Virus record (IMG/VR): IMGVR_UViG_3300005831_000025
Location: 1-31,880 of that record
Reading direction: 5' to 3' (one strand)
DNA length: 31,880 bases
Source: a virus
The position numbers were made by a program, and so were the translations under genes. The notes below the pieces were generated by a model. That model saw nothing but the letters and a program-made list of their open reading frames with translations, did not search any database and had not been told where the DNA came from. Shown here one piece after another: positions 3,978 to 31,579 of the stretch; position 1 is the stretch's first letter; every line of letters begins with the position of its first letter.

Positions 3978-4083
3978 TCAAACGCAGTGATATCAGGCAT
4001 ACTGTTGAGCATCTACAGACAATCTGTATAAATAGTCATGTGCTTATAGGTATGTTTGTATAACTTGTCTGTAAATGCTTCAT
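3978..4083 (+). repeat. Structured repeat element, copy 1 of 3
   Basis: This begins with the box TCAAACGCAGTGATATCA, then ACTGTTGA, then a hairpin with arms GAGCATCTACAGACAA (4007-4022) and TTGTCTGTAAATGCTT (4065-4080). Near-copies lie at 17232-17337 (minus) and 31215-31320 (plus). It lies between the tape measure and the hub gene and is antisense to both. Non-coding. Confidence 0.85.
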
Positions 4084-4110
4084 ATTTTATAGTTTATACT
4101 TTTAGACATT

Positions 4111-8490: not shown

Positions 8491-8814
8491 AAATATCTCT
8501 CCTTAAATAAATAATATTTATATTTATATATCTATCATCATATATAGTGTTCTTTGATGTCTAGATGGGTATTAAAGCTCTTTAACCATTTTTAAGGTCT
8601 AATTATACATTAAAATATTGAATCGCTTTAAACAGCCTTAAATCGTTTAGTTATATATTTACAAGCATTACTAATATTTTAAATACTATAAACATCATAT
8701 AGGTCTATTTAACGTTTCCTTGGCTATATAGGCATTATTAATATATAGTGGTACAATTATACCTTTTACACTAATAAAGCCTTATATAGCCTTAGAAACA
8801 TCAATCAACACATA
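8491..8814. other. 324-bp structured intergenic region
   Basis: No gene is visible. It contains two copies of the recurring motif (8632-8648 and 8699-8717) and a strong hairpin at 8722-8791, listed separately. It lies between the major tail protein and the chaperones, where transcript levels usually drop sharply. Confidence 0.5.
8722..8791 (-). ncRNA. Long hairpin between major tail and chaperone genes
   Basis: Arms GGCTATATAGGC (8722-8733) and GCCTTATATAGCC (8779-8791) pair over 12 bp with one bulge. Inner stems ATTATT/AATAA and AGTG/CACT continue the pairing. No T tract follows on the minus strand, so it does not look like a classical terminator. It may be a 3'-end stabiliser of the major tail mRNA or an RNase III site; the function is unknown. 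Confidence 0.5.
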
Positions 8815-9687: not shown

Positions 9688-9825
9688 TAATAATCACTCT
9701 CCATTTCATTTATTTGAATCGTTTTAATACTTTTAAGCAATTAAATATGATTTATTGTCATATTATAGCTTAAAATAGAATAATTCGTTATATACCCTTT
9801 AAAACGCTAAATAAAGGTATATGAC
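9688..9825. other. Intergenic gap with competing hairpins
   Basis: 138 bp. ATATACC (from about 9790)/GGTATAT flank a copy of the recurring motif (9790-9808), and an upstream GTCATAT can pair with the downstream ATATGAC that overlaps the same right arm. Two exclusive hairpins are therefore possible. No gene seen. Confidence 0.4.
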
Positions 9826-11400: not shown

Positions 11401-11593
11401 ATTATCACCTCATTTATTTAATATATTCATAGTTTGGAATATTATTCATATAACTACTATATCCATTTGAATGTTACTCAAGTGACTTTTGTCACATTCA
11501 CATTTAAGCTATTAGTGAGTTTGAAGCATTTTGAGTTGAAAGTCCATTTTGAATGTTACATAACCAGTATTAAATATAAGTTTGAGTAACATA
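11401..11593. other. 193-bp gap with GTTAC inverted repeats
   Basis: No gene. It contains element 11469-11526 (listed separately), a further direct GAATGTTAC near 11552 and an inverted GAGTAACAT near 11584. The gap separates the head-fibre cassette from the neck genes. Confidence 0.4.
11469..11526 (+). repeat. GAATGT hairpin element, copy 1 of 2
   Basis: GAATGTTACTCAAGT at 11469 pairs imperfectly with TGTCACATTC (11490-11499), followed by TATTAGTGAGTTTGA. The element at 18326-18381 has the same order of blocks (GAATGTAACACAAGT, TGTCACATTC, TATTAGTGGCTTTGA). Both copies are in late-operon gaps and non-coding. Confidence 0.65.
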
Positions 11594-11794: not shown

Positions 11795-12751
11795 CTATAC
11801 TTTAGTTATTCCTGTAATACTCCACCCACGACCTGTAAGCGTTGTTACTGCTGTATCCGATGTTGATGATCTTGTTTTTCCTGTTGCTGTAAATGTTCCG
11901 TTATTTTTTGTTGTTGATGCATAATTTATAAGTGTTTGATCCATATCGTTTGTTGTTAATCCTGTGTTTGATAAAATTGTTATTGTTGGTATTCCAGCGT
12001 CAACAGGTGTATATATTCCTGTTACAAGTGTACAATTACTCAATCTTAAAGAATTAGTTATTTTACCTTGCAGATCTGCTAAACTACCTGTTACAAGTGT
12101 ACAATTACTCAAGTCTAAATAATTAGTTAATTTACCTTGCAGATCTGCTAAACTACCTGTTACAAGTGTGCAATTATATAAACTTAAGTAGTTAGTTATT
12201 TTACCTTGCAGATCTGCTAAACTACCTGTTATTTGGGTGCAATTATATAAACTTAAGTAGTTAGTTAATTTACCTTGCAGATCTGCTAAACTACCTGTTA
12301 TTTGGGTACAATTATATAAAATTAAGTAGTTAGTTATTTTACCTTGCAGATCTGCTAAACTACCTGTTATTTGGGTGCAATTACTCAAGTTTAAATAGTA
12401 AGTTAATTTACCTTGCAGATCTGCTAAACTACCTGTTACAAGTGTGCAATTACTCAAGTTTAAATAGTAAGTTAATTTACCTTGCAGGTCTTTTAATTTT
12501 CCTATATATCTTGAATCTGTTGCGTTATCATTAACTTGTACAGTACTACCATTAATTTTTTTAGCATAAAGTTTAACAGTTTCATCGCTAGCCAATGTGA
12601 ACGCAGGTCTATTTGTAAAGCTAACTCGACCATCTGGAAATACCCATTTTACAAAACATCCAGTGACCGAAAAATCAAAAAGTCCAGCATCACAAGGAAA
12701 TAAAATAGGTTTTAATTTACTTAAATTTTTATTTAAAGCTGGATTAATCAA
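11795..12751 (-). CDS. Leucine-rich-repeat surface protein
   Basis: 318 aa. The start is TTG at 12751, overlapping the previous TGA stop (TTGA) with GAGGGG upstream, so translation is coupled. Residues 1-83 form an N-terminal domain (CFVKWVFPDGRVSFTNRPAF). Residues 84-244 are seven 23-aa repeats of the form GSLADLQGKLTNYLxLxNCTxxT, a solenoid of leucine-rich type with regular Leu, Asn and Cys. Residues 245-318 form a closing domain (NTGLTTNDMDQTLINYASTTKNN..., LTGRGWSITG) that I associate with phage LRR-type proteins. It is placed among head genes rather than tail genes, so it may decorate the capsid. LRR solenoids bind proteins or glycans; the ligand is unknown. Confidence 0.75.
   Translation of the reverse strand: MINPALNKNLSKLKPILFPCDAGLFDFSVTGCFVKWVFPDGRVSFTNRPAFTLASDETVKLYAKKINGSTVQVNDNATDSRYIGKLKDLQGKLTYYLNLSNCTLVTGSLADLQGKLTYYLNLSNCTQITGSLADLQGKITNYLILYNCTQITGSLADLQGKLTNYLSLYNCTQITGSLADLQGKITNYLSLYNCTLVTGSLADLQGKLTNYLDLSNCTLVTGSLADLQGKITNSLRLSNCTLVTGIYTPVDAGIPTITILSNTGLTTNDMDQTLINYASTTKNNGTFTATGKTRSSTSDTAVTTLTGRGWSITGITKV
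12020..12502 (-). repeat. Seven in-frame 69-bp tandem repeats
   Basis: The 69-bp unit encodes 23 aa. Units share long identical stretches such as ACCTTGCAGATCTGCTAAAC, and differ mainly at LVT/QIT, KL/KI and the NLS/SLY positions. The first unit is the most diverged (GKLKDLQ). High DNA identity points to recent expansion by slippage or unequal crossing over. Confidence 0.9.
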
Positions 12752-16287: not shown

Positions 16288-16899
16288 TTATTTTTCAATT
16301 GATTTTATTTGATTTTGAATAGACAACATTTCAATAGTGTTGCCTGCTTTTTCAGCATTGTTATATCTTTCAACTAATTGTTGTTTCTTACTAACAACGC
16401 TAGGTCTTTCACCTAAATCATTTATTTTAATAGGTTCAACTTGTGATTGTTGAAACATATTCGAATACTTGTCTTTTATACCAGCAATATCGAATTGAGC
16501 TTTACCATCAACTACATTAACAGCATCTAAATCTATTTGAGTTAATAGTAAGTCTGGATAAATAGCCTTTTCATTTAATAACATTTCTTTTAAAGTATTC
16601 TTTTTGATAATGTTATTGATCTCTTTATCTTTGCTTTCTATATCTTTGTTGTGCTTTTCTTGTAAAGCATTAAATTGAGCCTTTAGTTCATTGTTGCTAC
16701 CAATAATACTTTCAACATCTTTTGCATTAGTTTCAAAATGAGTAATCTTTTCTTTTAGAACCTTATTTTCTTCATTTACATTATTGAACTTACCTATTGG
16801 TATGTATGACCCATCATTTGGCAGTACTTTTATATCTCCAAGTAATTCAATAACTTTGTTATAAGAATCCTCATTTAATTTATTCTTTAAAAATTCCAT
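16288..16899 (-). CDS. Capsid scaffold protein (GP20-like)
   Basis: 203 aa, ATG behind AAGGGAGATATATTGAA. The order is a helical N-terminus (EFLKNKLNEDSYNKVIELLG), IPIGKFNNVNEENKVLKEKI, a central coiled coil (residues ~45-105, KAQFNALQEKHNKDIESKDKEI), then a C-terminal basic amphipathic region. This layout, IP.-.-KFN plus coiled coil, is that of phage minor structural protein GP20, which acts as scaffold. It directly precedes the capsid gene. Confidence 0.85.
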   Translation of the reverse strand: MEFLKNKLNEDSYNKVIELLGDIKVLPNDGSYIPIGKFNNVNEENKVLKEKITHFETNAKDVESIIGSNNELKAQFNALQEKHNKDIESKDKEINNIIKKNTLKEMLLNEKAIYPDLLLTQIDLDAVNVVDGKAQFDIAGIKDKYSNMFQQSQVEPIKINDLGERPSVVSKKQQLVERYNNAEKAGNTIEMLSIQNQIKSIEK

Positions 16900-17333
16900 T
16901 TCAATATATCTCCCTTGTTAGTTTTTAAAGTGTAACCCTCCACCTCAAGTCAATTTTGAATAGATTTGAAACTACTAAGAGTCATTGTTTATAATGTTTA
17001 GGTAATTACAACTTGAAATAAATAAAAGGCTTCAATAGCCCTTTAAACGTCAAATAGACCTATATAATAAGTCTATTAATATTGATATATAATTAAGTTA
17101 AATATATATAAAAAATATGCCTAATTTATATGGATTTTTAATGATTTATCCTCATTTGAAACCATTACAAACAGTACATTGTAGACACGCATATTTTTCA
17201 ATATTGCCATATCTGATATATATTTAGATTATCGAGCATTTACAGACAAGTTATAGAATTTAGCCTACAAGTGTATGACTTTTCTCACAGATTGGCTACA
17301 AATACTCAACAGCACCATTGATATCACTACGTT
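16900..17333. other. 434-bp structured gap between MuF and scaffold genes
   Basis: No gene. In minus-strand order it holds repeat element copy 3 (17232-17337), a hairpin AATAGAC/GTCTATT (about 17053-17077), a copy of the recurring motif (17035-17052), and a short GGCT/AGCC stem followed by TTTTATTTATTT. The last could be a weak terminator. This is the place where a step between early-assembly and capsid expression could be set. Confidence 0.45.
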
Positions 17334-17337
17334 TCAA
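17232..17337 (-). repeat. Structured repeat element, copy 3 of 3
   Basis: Read on the minus strand it begins TTGAAACGTAGTGATATCA, with the TGA stop of the MuF gene inside the first four bases. It continues to hairpin arms GAGTATTTGTAGCCAA (17292-17307) and TTGTCTGTAAATGCTC (17234-17249). It shares the box, the spacing and the arms with the copies at 3978 and 31215. Confidence 0.85.
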
Positions 17338-18236
17338 GGATTTTGATATTGTTTCGCCCAGTCTTTATATTTTGAGTATTTTATTATATCTTTAGATATA
17401 TTATCTTTTCTTTCTTTGAAGTTAACATTAACCATACTAGCTATAGTTGTACATCTACAATTTATATCTAATGAAGCAACTCCAAAATTAGATGGTGATT
17501 TAGTCTTATGACCATTGTAATGAAAGTAACCTTTATCATCTGATATTTGACCATCTAGTTTTTTATGTGCATCTCTAGTTCTATTATCTAATGTGGCTAA
17601 CCATACTTTTTTGAATTGTATTCCTAGATTCTCGGCTTCTTCATATGATCTTTCAATACCTTTGTTTCGAATTCTATTGATTTCAGTTCTTGAGATTTTC
17701 ATACTTTGATTTCTAGAAATATTTAATATATTACTAACTTCTTTAGATAACTTTTTTAAGTCTGAACCTTTAATAATGTTCTGTATTATTGATTGCTTGA
17801 TCCTAAGCAGAGAATTTGATTTATTTTTTATAATTCTATCTTTAATATATAAACTCGATATTGGTTGTTTTATAGCTTCTTCAACTTGTTCTAAAGGTAT
17901 TTGATTGAATACCAAGTCTATGTTTGCACCGTTGAGCATATTAAACATACTTAACATATATGAATTGTAGTATACTTTTATTAATGTGTTATAAATTGAG
18001 GTGTATTCCTCGGAAAAATAACTATCTAATATAGCTTTGATTTTACTTTCTATCATCACAAATCTATTATTAATTAGAATATCGTTATAAATGACTACTC
18101 CATCTTTTGCAAAAAAAATAAATATACCAGCTATCAACTGATATATTTTAGTATTCATTTCTTCATATCTCTTAATTATTTCCTGTTCAGAGTATTTATA
18201 GTATAGATCTATATTTTCATTTGAATATATATCCAT
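17334..18236 (-). CDS. Minor head protein (MuF / SPP1 gp7-like)
   Basis: 300 aa, ATG behind AAAGGGTGATGTAGTTGA. The first ~170 residues are helical. Residues ~175-265 carry the MuF domain: SRTEINRIRNKG, then VWLATLDNRTRDAHKKLDG (211-229), a spacer YFHYNGHKTKSPSNFG, and DINCRC (257-262). The protein is packaged in the head beside the portal and assists head morphogenesis and DNA ejection. There is no toxin-type C-terminal extension. It follows the portal gene after a 281-bp gap. Confidence 0.9.
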   Translation of the reverse strand: MDIYSNENIDLYYKYSEQEIIKRYEEMNTKIYQLIAGIFIFFAKDGVVIYNDILINNRFVMIESKIKAILDSYFSEEYTSIYNTLIKVYYNSYMLSMFNMLNGANIDLVFNQIPLEQVEEAIKQPISSLYIKDRIIKNKSNSLLRIKQSIIQNIIKGSDLKKLSKEVSNILNISRNQSMKISRTEINRIRNKGIERSYEEAENLGIQFKKVWLATLDNRTRDAHKKLDGQISDDKGYFHYNGHKTKSPSNFGVASLDINCRCTTIASMVNVNFKERKDNISKDIIKYSKYKDWAKQYQNP

Positions 18237-18517
18237 TCAACTACATCACCCTTTCAATATTTAATTTAATTAGTCTAAATATAATTTCCAGTTTTAAAGC
18301 ACTAAAATATATATGCTTTTATTGTGAATGTAACACAAGTACATTCTGTCACATTCGTTTTGTGAGTATTAGTGGCTTTGAGTACATTTACCAATTTTGA
18401 CCCTCGCTTTAAAAGTTATAGTGGTATCATAATTTACAGTTTTGGAAATCATCTACTAATAAATACATGGAAAATATATAATTTATTTATAAGAATTTTT
18501 TTAATTGGAAATAGATT
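18237..18517. other. 281-bp gap between portal and MuF genes
   Basis: No gene. It contains the second GAATGT hairpin element (18326-18381). On the minus strand downstream of it lies an A+T-rich segment with TATATT/TATAAT-like hexamers that could house a promoter for the MuF gene; I cannot fix one. Confidence 0.35.
18326..18381 (+). repeat. GAATGT hairpin element, copy 2 of 2
   Basis: GAATGTAACACAAGT, then TGTCACATTC (18347-18356) which pairs back with GAATGT-ACA, then TATTAGTGGCTTTGA. It matches 11469-11526 in block order and spacing. Confidence 0.65.
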
Positions 18518-20444: not shown

Positions 20445-21710
20445 TCACCTCATAAAATTCATTGATCGCTTGAACACAATAGTATTGATAAAATACCTTT
20501 CTTCATCTTTAGTGTGGTCATGTACCTTTAAAGGCTTATCATCACCTTTATTGCTTGCTTTTTCATCCCAACAATATGATGAGAATTCTTTAAAACTATT
20601 AACACAACAATCATTAAATAAAAGTAACCCATCATTTAAAACTGATGAGTAGTTCTTTATACCTTCTAATACATTATTGTTAGCCTTAATAATCTTTGAA
20701 ATTTGCCTTTGCTTTAACTCAGCTATGAAACTTGATGCTGATGGATCTATTATTATAGCTCTTATAGGTCTATTCTTAATAAAATCAATCATGTCATTAG
20801 CATATTCTTTATCAGTCTTTTGGACTTCAGAATCTCTACCACTAAAATAATATTCATCTATCTTGTAATATTTATTGTTATATTTACCATATAGACCAAA
20901 TGCACATGGATTATAAGTGCCATAGTCAACAGATACATAATACTCGGTATATGCCCTATCTTCGGTATTAACAACATGTTTTTCATATGAAAACATATCA
21001 TATATAATTCCATCGGCTATAACCCATAATCCTAGTATAAATCGCTTATAGAATAATCCACTATATCTATTTTGATATCTTTGTTTTATAGACTCTGACA
21101 ATGTTAGATTATCATTCATAGTAAAATGAAGTTTCAACATATTCTTTTCAGTACATTTATCAATCCAATTTACTTTAAACCAATGTTGTGGAGAATCTGG
21201 ATTGCAGTTAAACCAAAATTTACTTCCATCAATTGAACATCTACCAGTTGCTTGGTTTACAAATGATTCTGGCATCAATGCAACTTCATCAAACAATATT
21301 CCTGCTAATGTTAAGCCTTGGATTAGATCTTGCGAACTCTCATCTTTACCACCAAATAAGAAGAATTTATTGGTTACACTACCTTTTGATATTGTTATCA
21401 AGTTTTCAGTCTTTACTTCATATATTTCATAACCTAAACTAATTAATGCTTGTTTAAGCCACATCCACACATTTCGCCTAAATGATCCAATTGTTTTTCC
21501 ACACATTGCGAATAGTTCATTGTTAAAGCTCGACATTGCCCAAATAACAAATGATGTTGCTAATGATAGTGTTTTGCCACTTCTAATAGCTCCATCAGCT
21601 ATAATTCCATCATAACTAGTACATAACCACCAGTTTAATACTTTCATTTGTTTATTTGAGAATTGTTTGAATTTAAAATTACTTTTATGACTTATAGATC
21701 TTTTATTCAA
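20445..21710 (-). CDS. terL: Terminase large subunit (PBSX/SPP1 type)
   Basis: 421 aa; the ATG overlaps the terS stop (ATGA). ATPase half: Walker A GAIRSGKT (40-47), Walker B ILFDE (138-142), coupling motif WFNCNPD (166-172). Nuclease half: VDYG with Asp262, IIIDPSASS with Asp322, and VHDHTKDEERY (397-406) providing the last acidic residues. All key residues are present and length is normal. The enzyme packages DNA into the prohead in a headful or cohesive-end manner; PBSX/SPP1-type relatives are mostly headful, which would agree with circular permutation. Confidence 0.95.
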   Translation of the reverse strand: MNKRSISHKSNFKFKQFSNKQMKVLNWWLCTSYDGIIADGAIRSGKTLSLATSFVIWAMSSFNNELFAMCGKTIGSFRRNVWMWLKQALISLGYEIYEVKTENLITISKGSVTNKFFLFGGKDESSQDLIQGLTLAGILFDEVALMPESFVNQATGRCSIDGSKFWFNCNPDSPQHWFKVNWIDKCTEKNMLKLHFTMNDNLTLSESIKQRYQNRYSGLFYKRFILGLWVIADGIIYDMFSYEKHVVNTEDRAYTEYYVSVDYGTYNPCAFGLYGKYNNKYYKIDEYYFSGRDSEVQKTDKEYANDMIDFIKNRPIRAIIIDPSASSFIAELKQRQISKIIKANNNVLEGIKNYSSVLNDGLLLFNDCCVNSFKEFSSYCWDEKASNKGDDKPLKVHDHTKDEERYFINTIVFKRSMNFMR

Positions 21711-22851: not shown

Positions 22852-23376
22852 TTATCGTATTAAAATAAAGGCAGGTTTATTATCTATAATATTAGGTATA
22901 GTAGTATGAAAAAATACTACTATTTTATGTCTTGTATTATGTTTATTAATTATCTAAGTGATCGAAAAATTTCTAAGTGATATTTCTAAGTGACTCAAAA
23001 TCCTAAGTGATTATTCCTAAGTGAAAATTTATTTTCTAAGTGAACCTAAGTGATTTTCTAAGTGAATAATTTTCTAAGTGATAATTTTCTACGTCGCAGA
23101 AAGTGAATTTCTAAGTGATTTTTATATAATATTTCTAAGTGAAACACCTACGTCTTAATTGATATGACTGTGTTTCAGTATTTTCTACGTCGCAGCTTTT
23201 TCTAAGTGATATTTTCTAGGTGATTTTCTAAGTGGTATAAGTGATGATTTCTAAGTGATAAACTTTTCTAAGTGTCACTTAGTAATTTTCTAAGTGATTT
23301 TCTAAGTGACACCACTTAGCTTTTCTAGGTGATATTTTCCTAAGTGACATCACATGATTTTCACTTAAAAAATGAC
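22852..23376. other. Gene-free region between two terminators
   Basis: About 525 bp with no credible ORF on either strand. Almost all of it is the CTAAGTGA array below. Because it is bounded on both sides by minus-strand terminators, any minus transcript that starts inside it would be a short non-coding RNA ending at 22813-22851. Confidence 0.55.
22954..23346 (+). repeat. Iteron-like CTAAGTGA array
   Basis: About 18 exact CTAAGTG units (for example 22954, 22973, 22986, 23003, 23017, 23036, 23046, 23074, 23111, 23202, 23302), usually in the context TTTTCTAAGTGAT. There are also variants CTACGTC (three, two followed by GCAG) and CTAGGTG (two), and inverted CACTTAG near the right end. Spacing is irregular, about 10 to 25 bp. 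Two units face inverted partners, giving hairpins CTAAGTG-T-CACTTAG (23268-23282) and CTAAGTG-ACAC-CACTTAG (23302-23319). This resembles a replication-initiator, partition or multi-site regulator target. Confidence 0.85.
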
Positions 23377-23412: not shown

Positions 23413-24807
23413 TTATAATTCTTTTACAAATATGCTTTTATTTCTTTTAGTTGGATGTTTCATTACTACTCCCAAACTTTCCAAGTATCCATATATCTTC
23501 TTGCCTTTGTGTTCAGTTATACATATTGCATTCGATATTTTAGTAGTGCCTAAACATTCATTTTCATTGTTCAAATTATTAATCATATAGTTATAATATT
23601 CCTTTAAAGATTTATCATCTATGTTTGAATCTTTAAACATATCACTTTTTACAATATCGGTTTGATTTACTTTAATTGGTTTTTCTGCTTTCTTTATATA
23701 TGCCATTGCTGGTTTCAAATCTTCATCACTTATTATTATTTCATTTGAATCATACTTTTTAGAATCTGATTCTATCTGACTATTAATATAGTTTTCATTA
23801 TCAATAAACACTTCTGATTTATAATACTTTACTTTAGTGATTTCTTGTTTAGGTCTAGATATTATACAAACTAATAAAAATACTGCTTCGAATAACCAAT
23901 AAAATCCTTTAGTTGCAATCTCTGCGTTTGAACCAAAAGCATAATCATAAGCCGATTTTTTTTTCAATGAACTATCTGGATTTATTATTTTAGTATTTAG
24001 ATTGCTTAAATCTGTTTGTAGTTTACCAATATCGTTGGATAAAGTATCTATTCTTGATTGTATTCCACTAGCCGAATTGTTACTTTCATTTAATTTATCT
24101 CTAGATTCTATTAATTTCTTCTTGTCATTTTCTAAAGTTGATATTTCTTTTCTCAATCCAGTTATTAAAGATCCAGTTTCTTTTAATCCAGAATTTTTAT
24201 TAGCTGTTATTTGACTATTCAAACTTGATATTTTTGAATCCTTTTGTTTAACTTGAGAGTTTAAATCATCTCTCAATTTCTTATCCTCTGATGAACTATC
24301 TTTGTCACTAGTCATTGCCAATGCATAATTACTATTTTCAGTATCTAATAGTTTTGTTTTAGTATCTATTTGAGATTCAATCATTTTTTTTTCGCTTTCT
24401 AATGTCTTGTATTCTTTGGAATTTTGTATGCTCGATGTTTTACTATCTTGAACTTGTTTTAATGTATACCCAGCCATAGACATAGTTGAGTACCATAATA
24501 AAGCAATCCATACTGGTATGAATATTATCCTAGTAGGAATATTAAGCTTTTTAATTTCATTTTTAAAGTTAAATTGACCATGAATTATTCCTATTGGCAA
24601 CAATGTCTGAATAATACCCAGACCAAAGGCTCTACTTATCTGAAAAGTTTTACCAAGGTAATCGTCTGATGTTTCTGCCCAAAAAGATATGTTTATAACC
24701 ATCATTATAACTATTCCAATCCACTTTACAATTACCAATTGTAAACCATCCATATTTGAAAACTTATTCTTCAAATACTCTAATCTAGAAACTTCTACTT
24801 TATTCAT
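23413..24807 (-). CDS. Four-pass membrane protein with coiled coil and putative winged-helix tail
   Basis: 464 aa, ATG behind AAAAGGTGGTCTAAAA. Three N-terminal membrane segments (about 23-43, 60-77, 93-113) are followed by a long coiled coil (~125-275, repeated LESEKKMIES, LRKEISTLENDKKKL, IDTLSNDIGKLQTDL) and a fourth segment (~300-317, FYWLFEAVFLLVCIIS). The remaining ~145 residues are soluble. The last ~50 (TKISNAICITEHKGKKIYGYLESLGVVMKHPTKRNKSIFVKEL) read as helix, recognition-type helix and basic wing. With an inside N-terminus the parity puts the coiled coil outside and this tail in the cytoplasm. I know no named family for it. Adjacency to the CTAAGTGA array suggests it could bind that DNA; this is inference. 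A lysis or exclusion role is an alternative. Confidence 0.75.
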   Translation of the reverse strand: MNKVEVSRLEYLKNKFSNMDGLQLVIVKWIGIVIMMVINISFWAETSDDYLGKTFQISRAFGLGIIQTLLPIGIIHGQFNFKNEIKKLNIPTRIIFIPVWIALLWYSTMSMAGYTLKQVQDSKTSSIQNSKEYKTLESEKKMIESQIDTKTKLLDTENSNYALAMTSDKDSSSEDKKLRDDLNSQVKQKDSKISSLNSQITANKNSGLKETGSLITGLRKEISTLENDKKKLIESRDKLNESNNSASGIQSRIDTLSNDIGKLQTDLSNLNTKIINPDSSLKKKSAYDYAFGSNAEIATKGFYWLFEAVFLLVCIISRPKQEITKVKYYKSEVFIDNENYINSQIESDSKKYDSNEIIISDEDLKPAMAYIKKAEKPIKVNQTDIVKSDMFKDSNIDDKSLKEYYNYMINNLNNENECLGTTKISNAICITEHKGKKIYGYLESLGVVMKHPTKRNKSIFVKEL

Positions 24808-26506: not shown

Positions 26507-26809
26507 CCCTTACATATATTAAGGAGTCCCGTTGTTAGTAAACACGCCACTTTTATGTATATTTTATATATAATTAATAGTAAAGTAAATGTTATTGATT
26601 GGCTTAATATTTACTTTGATTTATTTACCGAGTTTATTTACTTTGAGAATATTGATTTTATGTTTAGATTATATTTATTAGAAATGGTAAAGAAAACGAT
26701 CGTTTATTTTACTTTAGATTAGAAATTAAAAAATCGTATGCAAGATATATAATATATGTGATATAATAGTTTTTGCAGTCAATAACAGGCGTACTTATAA
26801 AATATCTAT
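26507..26809. promoter_or_regulatory. Divergent control region with TTTACTTT operators
   Basis: No gene. Four TTTACTTT half-sites: 26610-26617, 26637-26644, 26708-26715 on the plus strand and inverted at 26582-26589. There is also a perfect 12-bp palindrome AAACGATCGTTT (26694-26705). It lies between the divergent HNH gene and first HTH gene and is the most likely operator region for a Cro/CI-type protein encoded next to it. Confidence 0.55.
26759..26767 (+). promoter_or_regulatory. Extended -10 promoter for the early genes
   Basis: TGATATAAT, a perfect TGn-TATAAT, about 85 bp upstream of the first HTH start; the -35 side is weak. Transcription would begin near 26774 and cover the leader element at 26810-26843. 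Confidence 0.6.
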
Positions 26810-26843
26810 TCCTAATATAGTAGAAGCAATAATTTATTGGAGG
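26810..26843 (+). promoter_or_regulatory. Leader hairpin at first HTH gene
   Basis: TCCTAATATAGTAG, a spacer and TTTATTGGAGG. CC-AATA pairs with TATTGG, placing part of the GGAGG ribosome site (26839-26843) in the stem. It resembles 27967-28018 and the cores of hairpins 27482-27548 and 27816-27916. Confidence 0.5.
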
Positions 26844-27469: not shown

Positions 27470-27481
27470 AAAAGTGAAAAA

Positions 27482-27548
27482 TTGATGAATTTCCCAGACT
27501 CCTATATATAGTAGGCTATATTATATAGGAGTAGGGAGAATTCATCAA
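27482..27548 (+). ncRNA. Covarying hairpin H1
   Basis: Outer arms TTGATGAATTTCCC (27482-27495) and GGGAGAATTCATCAA (27534-27548). Inner arms ACTCCTATATA (27498-27508) and TATATAGGAGT (27522-27532). Compared with H2 (27816-27916), two outer-stem pairs change on both sides (T-A to A-T and A-T to T-A), so pairing is conserved. On the minus strand a T-rich tract follows, but no minus-strand gene ends here. Confidence 0.7.
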
Positions 27549-27612
27549 AAATGATGTAAAAATAAATATTTACATAAAAGATTATATTTTATACAAAGGA
27601 GTGACTAATATT

Positions 27613-27816: not shown

Positions 27817-27916
27817 TTCTCAGATGCCAAAATTGAAGATTTTCCGATACCGCTATATATAGTAGACTATATTATATAGGAGTACCCGAAAATCTTCAAA
27901 ATTTGAATCTGAGAAT
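27816..27916 (+). ncRNA. Covarying hairpin H2
   Basis: Outer arms of 29 nt (27816-27844 and 27888-27916) pair with about 25 of 29 matches. The inner 32 nt (27853-27884) match H1 at all but one position (27502-27533). The arms are homologous to H1 (TTGAAGATTTTCC against TTGATGAATTTCC) with compensating changes on the other side. Confidence 0.7.
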
Positions 27917-28025: not shown

Positions 28026-28232
28026 ATGAAACATATTGGTAAAAAAATCAAAGCTAAATTAAGAGCAAACAAAATTAAGATTAAAACTTTGTTACCACTT
28101 TTAGGAATCAAAGAAAGGCAACTTTCAAATTGTATGAATAACCATGCAGAATTTAAATTAAGAGATATAGTAATAATAGCAGGATTATTAAATTGCACAG
28201 TCGATGAACTAATTAATGAAATGGAGGGTTAA
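28026..28232 (+). CDS. Cro/XRE-type HTH regulator 2
   Basis: 68 aa from ATG 28026, 7 nt after GGAGG; longer readings back to 27954 run through hairpin H3 and are rejected. IKAKLRANKIKIKTLLPLLGIKERQLSNCMNNHAEFKLRDIVIIAGLLNCTVDELI aligns without gaps to regulator 1. Turn and recognition residues differ (ERQLSNCMNNHAEF against NRTLSRYINGHVIF), so operator choice is likely to differ. It ends 4 bp before the helicase start and is co-transcribed with it. Confidence 0.82.
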   Translation: MKHIGKKIKAKLRANKIKIKTLLPLLGIKERQLSNCMNNHAEFKLRDIVIIAGLLNCTVDELINEMEG

Positions 28233-28236
28233 ACAT

Positions 28237-31071
28237 ATGAAAAACTTACAAATTAAGTGTTCTTTGGACACTGTAAAATACGAAAGTAAACCATGTTCAA
28301 ATGATATAATGAAGATTAATCAAAGAATGGCTCAAAATTCTAATGATTATAGTAAATATTCATTACCATATAATAAATTACCAGAATTGATTGGTGAAAA
28401 AGGACATACATTTTGCGGTGCAATATTTAATGGTGCTAAACAAGTAGTTAACTTCAAAGCACAACAAATGTTTGGATTAGATTTCGATAATGGAATAACA
28501 TTTGATGAAGTTGTAAAAAGATGTGAAAAGTATGATTTACCAATATCATTTGCATATGAAACTTTTAGTTCTGTTAATTGTAGTAAGTTTAGAGTAGTAA
28601 TGTTACATTCATTCAATATTATAGATACTCAAGTTGCATCATTAATTCAATTAGCTTTAATGACAATATTTCCAGAATGCGATAAAGCCTGTAAAGATGT
28701 ATCAAGATTATTCTTTGGTGGTAATAAGAAATGTATATATGTAAATGAAGATATTGATAATGCATGTTTTACAGTTGATAAGTTGATGTTTAGTTTATAC
28801 TCATACTTAAGATATTCAGATGAAGTAAATCTTGCTAGAAATATAAAAAACTTTGCTTCAAATACTGGTATAGAGTTAATTAACAATATGCCATTTATAA
28901 GTATTGTTGGAGATAATGAAGTTATAGAATCAAATGAAGATCCGTCAAAAACTACTTATGTATATGAGTGCGACGATTTGAATTATATTATAACAATGTC
29001 TAATAATGTATCAAAAGGATGCAAAAATTTAAATAATCCAAAATATGATTATAGTAATACTAAAATGAATTTTGATAATATCCAAAAATTTAACTTCAAA
29101 ACATTATCTGAGAAATGTAAATTATTTAATGAATTTGAAAATGGTTCAGAGTGGTTATATCATCAAGAATTATTTGGATTGGCTCAAAACCTTTGTTGCA
29201 TAAAAGGCGGTAAAGAATTATTCTTAAATATATTATATAGTGATAAAAATTCAGAATATCCAAGTTATAGAGATAAGAATTGGAATTACTATACTGATTA
29301 TGTAAGAAAGAACTATAATCCATGTAGATGCGATGGATTTTGCAAATATAAAGATACTTGTAGCCATGGTAAAAATTTAATCGGTCAAGTATATCAATCA
29401 AACAATACTATCGAAGTAGTATCTAAAGTTGAAACTATTACATTAGAAGAAACTGAAAAGAGATTAGTTGAAGCTTTCAACACTATAAGAAATGGTGAAA
29501 AAGGAAAAGTGTATTGTTTAAAATCTAGCGTTGGAGTTGGCAAAACTCACCAAATGATTGAGCTTGGTAAAAATAAAAATATAATGTATGCATTACCTAC
29601 ACATAAATTAAAAGATGAAGTTTATAATAGAGCAATTGAAAATGGATTGGATATCAAATCTACTCCAATGATACCAATATTAGAAGATTTAGAATTGAGT
29701 TCAAAAGTAAATAAATTTTATAACAATGGAAATTTCAAGTTGGCTAGAAACGAAATGTATAAATATGTACAAAACCACAACAATGATGATGCAAAAAAAA
29801 TAAATGAATACTTTGCTAATGAAGAAGATGCTTTGAACTTTAAGGGTTCATTGGCAACTACACATAAGAAAGCAGTTCATTTAGAAAACGTTTACCAAGA
29901 TATAGTTATATACGACGAAGATATAACTAACTCAGTTATAGAAATTAAAAGCATTTCTATAAAAAATTTAATTGACTTACAAGATAGAATTTCTTTTAGT
30001 AATAACGATGAATCAATACAATTTGCCAACGAATTGATTCAAATAATTAACAATAGCGATGTTTATACTACTTGTACATTAGATGTAGACTCTAAGAAAT
30101 TAAAATCTTTCATCAAATTAAATAATAGTACTTTAAACTTTTCAGTAGATTCACCAATATTAGGCTTTTTAAATGCTGACTTTTTCATCAAAGTACCAAT
30201 TGTATCAGAAGATGAAACAACTTATGCTATTTATTTTGTTGAAAAGTTCGAATTAAATAAGTCTGTTATCAATGTTATTCTATCTGCTACTTTAGATTAT
30301 AATATATGTAATAAGCTTTTTCAAGACCGTTTAGTTTGGATAGATATTGGTGAAACTGAAAATGCTGGTAATCTATACCAAGATATTAGTTATTCTTGCA
30401 GTAGAAGTAGTTTATCAAATAAAAGCACTGAGTCTAAAATTAAAGAATTCATAAAATCAAAAGAAATTGATAATGTAATAACTTTTAAAGCATCTGAATC
30501 AGAATACAATGCATCATTACACTTTGGAAATGTTGAAGGCTTCGACTTCATGAGTGGTAAAGACTTAGTTGTAGTAGGTACTCCACATTATTCAAACATT
30601 AAGTATTTATTATTAGCATCTGCTTTAGGTTATAAAGTAAATTCAAATAATACAGAGTTTAAACCTCAAAACGTTGAATACAATGGATTCAAGTTTAAGT
30701 TTAATACTTTTAGTGATGTTACTTTAAGACAAATACAATTATGGACTATAGAATCAGAGTTGGTTCAATCTATTGGTAGAGCTAGATTAACTAGAAATGA
30801 TTGCAATGTTTACTTATTGTCTAACTTTCCATTAAAGCAGGCTTCATTCATTAAAGAAGTTTCTAAAATAGAAGTTGTTGAAAAGGTTGAAGATATAATT
30901 AAAGAAATTCCAGAACAAGAAGTGTTTGAATATGTATATGCTGATATTGAAGATATTATAAAAGAAATTGATATTATGGAACATCAAGTTATAGAAATGT
31001 TAATAAACGATGGAGTATATTTTGATATATTTGAAGTTGATTGCAATGAAAATTTTTTTAGAGCATCATAA
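28237..31071 (+). CDS. Primase-like / SF2 helicase fusion, replication protein
   Basis: 944 aa from ATG 28237, behind GGAGGGTTAAACAT; an earlier in-frame ATG at 28216 overlaps the previous gene. N-terminal part (~45-195): GLDFDNGITFDEV (80-92), YETFSS, KFRVVM (117-122), FPECDKACKDVSRLFFGG (145-162), a pattern I recognise from archaeo-eukaryotic-primase-like domains of phage and plasmid replication proteins. A Cys cluster follows (Cys363, 365, 369, 375, His377), a probable zinc site. Helicase part: Walker A VGVGKT (432-437), ALPTHKL (452-458), DEAD-like VIYDED (557-562), and motif VI QSIGRARLTR (~844-853). It probably unwinds and primes phage DNA. No phage DNA polymerase is present, so host polymerase is needed. 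Confidence 0.85.
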   Translation: MKNLQIKCSLDTVKYESKPCSNDIMKINQRMAQNSNDYSKYSLPYNKLPELIGEKGHTFCGAIFNGAKQVVNFKAQQMFGLDFDNGITFDEVVKRCEKYDLPISFAYETFSSVNCSKFRVVMLHSFNIIDTQVASLIQLALMTIFPECDKACKDVSRLFFGGNKKCIYVNEDIDNACFTVDKLMFSLYSYLRYSDEVNLARNIKNFASNTGIELINNMPFISIVGDNEVIESNEDPSKTTYVYECDDLNYIITMSNNVSKGCKNLNNPKYDYSNTKMNFDNIQKFNFKTLSEKCKLFNEFENGSEWLYHQELFGLAQNLCCIKGGKELFLNILYSDKNSEYPSYRDKNWNYYTDYVRKNYNPCRCDGFCKYKDTCSHGKNLIGQVYQSNNTIEVVSKVETITLEETEKRLVEAFNTIRNGEKGKVYCLKSSVGVGKTHQMIELGKNKNIMYALPTHKLKDEVYNRAIENGLDIKSTPMIPILEDLELSSKVNKFYNNGNFKLARNEMYKYVQNHNNDDAKKINEYFANEEDALNFKGSLATTHKKAVHLENVYQDIVIYDEDITNSVIEIKSISIKNLIDLQDRISFSNNDESIQFANELIQIINNSDVYTTCTLDVDSKKLKSFIKLNNSTLNFSVDSPILGFLNADFFIKVPIVSEDETTYAIYFVEKFELNKSVINVILSATLDYNICNKLFQDRLVWIDIGETENAGNLYQDISYSCSRSSLSNKSTESKIKEFIKSKEIDNVITFKASESEYNASLHFGNVEGFDFMSGKDLVVVGTPHYSNIKYLLLASALGYKVNSNNTEFKPQNVEYNGFKFKFNTFSDVTLRQIQLWTIESELVQSIGRARLTRNDCNVYLLSNFPLKQASFIKEVSKIEVVEKVEDIIKEIPEQEVFEYVYADIEDIIKEIDIMEHQVIEMLINDGVYFDIFEVDCNENFFRAS

Positions 31072-31214: not shown

Positions 31215-31320
31215 TCAAACGCAGTCATATCAATAGACTTGTTGACCATTTGTAGACAATCTGTACAAATTGACCTACACATATATAACTTTTATTATAA
31301 GTTGTCTGTAGATGCTCGAT
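31215..31320 (+). repeat. Structured repeat element, copy 2 of 3
   Basis: TCAAACGCAGTCATATCA box, then TTGTTGA, then arms GACCATTTGTAGACAA (31244-31259) and TTGTCTGTAGATGCTC (31302-31317). Three stem positions are G-U pairs in this orientation. It shares about three quarters of its positions with copies 1 and 3 by eye. Confidence 0.85.
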
Positions 31321-31579
31321 ATTATAAAACAATAAGAATTAATTGACATTTGCACTCATATATAATATAGAATAAGTATTAAAGTAAATATACTATATCA
31401 TTACTTATAATTACATAATTGGAATATCGCAAGCCATAATATTATAGTAATTGGTCAATAATAATTGGTAAATGGCTAGAACTCGCTAATAGCTTAATAG
31501 CTTATTACACGAAATAATTATTTCGTTCAATTAGAATTATTATGAATATTTATTTACAAATATTGTAGTGCTTATGAAT

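Follow-up and report, generated by a model that had tools for sequence, protein, structure and literature searches.

A dispersed box-and-hairpin element in the genome of a low-GC tailed phage, probably a constrained site of two parts

Three similar stretches of DNA lie far apart in one phage genome, each with a short box and a long hairpin. The question raised by this locus is whether they form a real element and, if so, whether it acts as a site in the DNA, as a structured RNA or as a mobile element. We analyzed the whole 31,880-nt IMG/VR record (hereafter the window), which begins and ends with the same 120 bp, the match extending no further. Given this exact end repeat, the record is probably a complete genome of ~31.76 kb. 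It is that of a low-GC tailed phage encoding a terminase (20445-21710; at most 62% identity to the phage collection), a portal, a major head protein, a tape measure, a holin-like protein and an amidase, along with XRE regulators (repressor-like) and three DUF5659 genes. The N-terminal part of its 951-aa replication-like protein matches Staphylococcus plasmid proteins at 24-29%, and we infer an extrachromosomal, phage-plasmid lifestyle. Separately, a gene of the virion region (11949-12572) contains seven in-gene repeats of 69 bp (23 aa, LADLQGKLTNYL...), as does its relative in the phage locus L189 (16528-17208; see below).

An earlier note on this DNA had placed the copies at 3978-4083 (+), 17232-17337 (-) and 31215-31320 (+) and had given them a common 5' box, a TGTTGA block and a 16-bp stem; it had suggested a structured RNA, a replication or packaging site, or a non-autonomous mobile element. 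Positions and strands were verified and all three parts are present, and the conserved unit reaches ~10 bp beyond the stem (GATAnTnTA), further than that note had it (Table 1). The three hairpin-bearing copies are noncoding and intergenic, with inverted-repeat arms of 16-20 bp and a pairwise identity of 71-74% (106 columns). BLAST connects them within the genome at E = 8.2e-15 and 6.4e-13, and within the intergenic set at E = 7.6e-20, 6.0e-18 and 1.4e-19. The box of copy 2 starts at the final base of the stop codon of the Mu F-like gene (17334-17336). Orientation had been described as independent of transcription; of the three, only copy 1 opposes its neighbors, and copies 2 and 3 have the same sense as the gene that precedes them.

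Table 1. Positions in the window of the element, the repeat array and other intergenic hairpin families, with the dispersed repeats of the closest phage (own coordinates).
Feature	Position	Strand	Remarks
Element, copy 1	3978-4089	+	Between minus-strand genes, inverted relative to them
Parts of copy 1	box 3980-3995; TGTTGA 4003-4008; long inverted repeat 4007-4079		Followed by an A/T-rich tail
Element, copy 2	17225-17337	-	Gap between Mu F-like (17334-18236) and scaffold-like (16288-16899) genes
Element, copy 3	31215-31326	+	3' of the 951-aa replication-like gene (28216-31071)
Solo box (AAACACAGTCATATCAAT)	23158-23175	-	17 of 18 bases as in copy 3; long hairpin absent
Iteron-like array	22950-23346	-	~20 CACTTAGAAAA-type repeats; encloses the solo box
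Hairpin family B (ATAGGTCTATTTAACGTTT...)	2364-2463, 8541-8605, 8695-8810, 9705-9824, 17003-17108		One copy terminator-like
Hairpin family C (GAATGT...ACATTC, then TATTAGTGAGTTTGA-like stretch)	11465-11531, 18318-18381; partial 31470-31497		
Hairpin family D	27478-27550, 27829-27901		Paired changes in both arms
~50-bp repeats of G297 (L189/L194)	near 639, 6047, 12628, 30256, 34763, 38776		Partly readable as ...FLFDEDK...

Divergence among the copies is uneven. Invariant columns make up 51/64 (80%) of the box, TGTTGA block and stem vs. 10/29 (34%) of the loop, in line with the earlier description of the loops as differing; the associated Fisher p of 4e-5 is optimistic, as block edges were partly chosen from conservation, although the loop was defined by the fold. 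As judged from the alignment, this blocky conservation suggests selection, and because the divergence is uneven we favor constraint over plain decay. The possibility that the element is a coding remnant (frame LKRSDIN...VEHL) was rejected: copies 2 and 3 carry stops in this frame, the changes show no excess at third codon positions, and there is no protein family or phage match.

A search of the window with the 18-mer AAACGCAGTCATATCAAT, allowing up to three mismatches, returned exactly four boxes, compared to 0.02 expected by chance. The fourth, a solo box that had been overlooked before, sits inside an iteron-like array of short repeats (Table 1). The box is asymmetric, ~17 bp long and of the CAAACGCAGTGATATCA type, and it is a separable, independent unit, because in the array it occurs without the hairpin. 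All four boxes are intergenic; with intergenic DNA making up ~13% of the genome, the chance of this is ~3e-4 if the boxes are independent. None falls within 26507-26836, the divergent early control region and the expected place of a repressor operator. The array lies downstream of an ORF of 464 aa (23413-24807), the product of which has, by eye, a membrane-bound and coiled-coil look; its predicted structure had a mean pLDDT of 49, too low to use. Given the position of the solo box inside an iteron-like array, we link the box to arrays of the replication or partition type, a link between element and array that depends on this single box. From position, the array may well belong to the same system as the element.

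The element is real and phage-specific, and probably a constrained site of two parts. The reading that we tentatively prefer is that of a DNA site, in which a protein-binding box and an inverted repeat would serve in replication or segregation of an extrachromosomal phage genome. A DNA-binding protein of the phage or its host would recognize the asymmetric box, and the inverted repeat would add another site or form a hairpin, extruded or single-stranded. Candidate settings are replication-start, segregation or packaging sites of a circular genome, with the repeat array presumably providing the connection to replication or segregation. Consistent with a DNA site, the box occurs in both orientations relative to transcription, as expected in duplex DNA. 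Counting against it are the G-U pairs on the plus strand of the element, the early control region without a box and the lack of a copy in the closest phage. A more specific version, which we regard as quite unlikely, is a multi-site replication or segregation system in an extrachromosomal phage, with the array box as the main site and the three box-plus-hairpin copies as satellites for the same protein.

The main rival, itself rather doubtful, is that the element is an RNA hairpin in intergenic mRNA involved in processing, stability, attenuation or antitermination. The transcribed strand would fold into the long stem, and the box would lie within the RNA or in a small adjacent hairpin. In favor of this, the plus strand of the element pairs far better than its complement: the RNAalifold energy is -21.97 kcal/mol, where column shuffles average -4.31 (z -8.2), vs. 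-9.24 kcal/mol (z -2.6) for the opposite strand. The G-U pairs reported for the stems of copies 2 and 3 are there (each has three, plus one mismatch), while copy 1 has one G-U and one A-C. The resulting excess of G-U over A-C (7 vs. 1 across the three stems) also hints at an RNA, and corresponds to ~5 vs. 1 independent events (one-sided p ~0.11, not significant). The right arm is nearly invariant and changes in the left arm mostly retain pairing via G-U. Moreover, the gene-sense strand is foldable in every copy, inverted copy 1 included (-26.9 kcal/mol for copy 1, minus strand; -26.1 for copy 2, minus; -19.7 for copy 3, plus).

However, the main stem contains no double compensatory change, a negative of low power with three sequences only. 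One such change was found in a helix of the loop that does not stay intact in another copy. The box may also be enclosed by a small hairpin, formed by CTCAA/TTGAG in copy 1 and by GTCAA/TTGAC in copy 3; one compensatory change from C-G to G-C separates the two, but the hairpin is no better than shuffles (z -0.66). The box of copy 1 is inverted to transcription, there is no Rfam match, and none of the three element hairpins scores as an intrinsic terminator with a U-tract. A separate terminator-like site was seen at 17045-17023 (-). Promoters or terminators at the elements were rejected, their counts being the same as in shuffles. On the whole, the solo box in the array leans toward a DNA site and the strand-biased G-U pairs toward an RNA.

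We then consider the distribution of the element. It had been called undescribed, and this is true for the collections searched (Rfam, phage and plasmid records, IMG/VR, and species genomes); the model search for further copies in phages and bacterial genomes that the earlier note had proposed turned up none. That note would have given up the element if there were neither covariation nor further copies, and both are largely the case: the stem lacks a double change and the relatives lack copies. Rfam gave 0 matches in the window and, around the copies, chance-level matches far below gathering only, and blastn against phage and plasmid records found no relative. The model R1, which finds the three copies as well as the solo box within the window, was applied to the IMG/VR loci resulting from three more specific patterns, again with no relative. 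In 84,980 species genomes, a pattern of box and TGTTGA yielded 13 stretches, about the number expected by chance, with R1 scores of at most 21.5 bits. R1 detected no element in 80 PBSX-type phage loci and 44 whole records, and none in 291, 394, and 296 whole genomes near loci of Clostridia/Tenericutes type, the latter being weak negatives from a limited first look. A search for related loci using the replication-like and Mu F proteins identified no relatives. Two sets of candidates were discarded. Matches to an IMG/VR box pattern of 14 fixed bases (at least 119 stretches) were not above the estimated chance number, and among those read none had the hairpin and several were starts of repressor-like genes (ATGACTACGTTTGA). 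The weak R1 match in G1112 (20.2 bits) coincides with the beginning of an XRE-like repressor gene.

The closest phage (locus L189 of genome G297; 38.9 kb, terminase 77%, same gene order) has no copy of the element, and its intergenic DNA at the matching gap is fully diverged from the window. G297 has dispersed repeats of its own, ~50 bp long and present in six copies in gaps between called ORFs (Table 1). One lies in the same gap between the Mu F and scaffold genes and one beside a repeat array; this array, of a different type (GTGACA), adjoins the 28%-identical G297 homologue of the 464-aa protein, in the same place as the array of the window. We rejected homology of these repeats with the element: their profile misses the boxes of the window, and their sequence is unrelated and partly coding-like. 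That both occur in the Mu F/scaffold gap is a parallel in position at most. In the same gap, just upstream of the scaffold-like gene, we observed a leader (16940-17010, minus strand) that is conserved at L189 12750-12815 (AGTTTCAAATCT...AGGTGG-GGGTTACACT...AAAAACTAA), whereas the rest of the gap is not. Elsewhere, this leader had a chance-level match only.

Intergenic self-comparison revealed at least three further dispersed hairpin families in this genome (Table 1), and the element is less surprising as one member of this genome-wide pattern. In family D, two near-perfect hairpins of ~73 bp each follow a DUF5659 gene, forming a gene-plus-hairpin cassette that looks duplicated. The other hairpin families, together with several noncoding intergenic copies that have an inverted repeat and mixed orientation, could also suggest a non-autonomous mobile element, MITE-like or derived from IS200/IS605, that spread within this phage lineage. 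We consider this unlikely. By eye, the flanks have no target-site duplication, direct repeats or shared target, and the inverted repeat is not terminal, as 26-30 conserved bp extend beyond it on one side only. Furthermore, the solo box lacks a hairpin, divergence is blocky and not uniform, and no genome searched has copies. Finally, old duplications of a single intergenic region, functionless now and slowly decaying, would fit the low identity of just three copies, the lack of relatives and the abundance of other intergenic repeats in the genome, but are improbable in view of the uneven conservation, the pairing kept on one strand and the nearly identical solo box, which argue for constraint. 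After the DNA site, the most likely order is the RNA hairpin, the MITE-like element and functionless duplication.

If functional, the element would be a new dispersed, phage-specific cis-element with separable box and hairpin, one copy of which is tied to an iteron-like array, and it would offer an entry point to the replication or maintenance of small circular phage genomes. If functionless, it would illustrate how families of intergenic hairpins build up within one phage genome. In both cases, the RNA and genome collections searched contain nothing that matches it.

Several known systems resemble the element in part. The replication or partition loci of plasmids comprise iteron-type arrays of short direct repeats. 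Similarly, one of the boxes lies within ~20 short direct repeats; in contrast to such loci, the hairpin-bearing boxes are kilobases away and an initiator or centromere-binding protein is only putative. REP and REPIN sequences and palindromic repeats related to IS200/IS605 are extragenic and without coding content, as is the element. They are found in bacterial chromosomes in high copy number and measure 20-40 bp (PMC2817692, PMC3116915, PMC3733652), whereas the element is ~110 bp long, occurs three times in a phage that has no transposase among the genes examined, and has no relatives in the collections searched. The stoperators of mycobacteriophages are likewise asymmetric sites scattered over a phage genome; they are binding sites of the immunity repressor, and transcription elongation stops at them (PMC9283540). 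Compared to stoperators, there are only four boxes, none in the early region, one opposing transcription and three with a long hairpin.

The nearest described kind is the SAS/ESAS of Cluster K mycobacteriophages, dispersed noncoding sequences with an asymmetric box and imperfect 17-bp inverted repeats separated by a variable spacer (PMC3203893). SAS number 11-19 copies, which are located at translation starts and almost all point the same way; their box is preceded by the inverted repeats (PMC3203893). The association with start codons is not seen here: the boxes lie 3' of genes or in the array, and the start codon downstream of copy 2 is >300 bp away. The element also differs in its 3+1 copies, its mixed orientation and an inverted repeat that follows the box instead of preceding it. 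What the two have in common is a phage-specific, dispersed box with associated inverted repeats; the element is new in sequence and make-up, and its general kind is already known.
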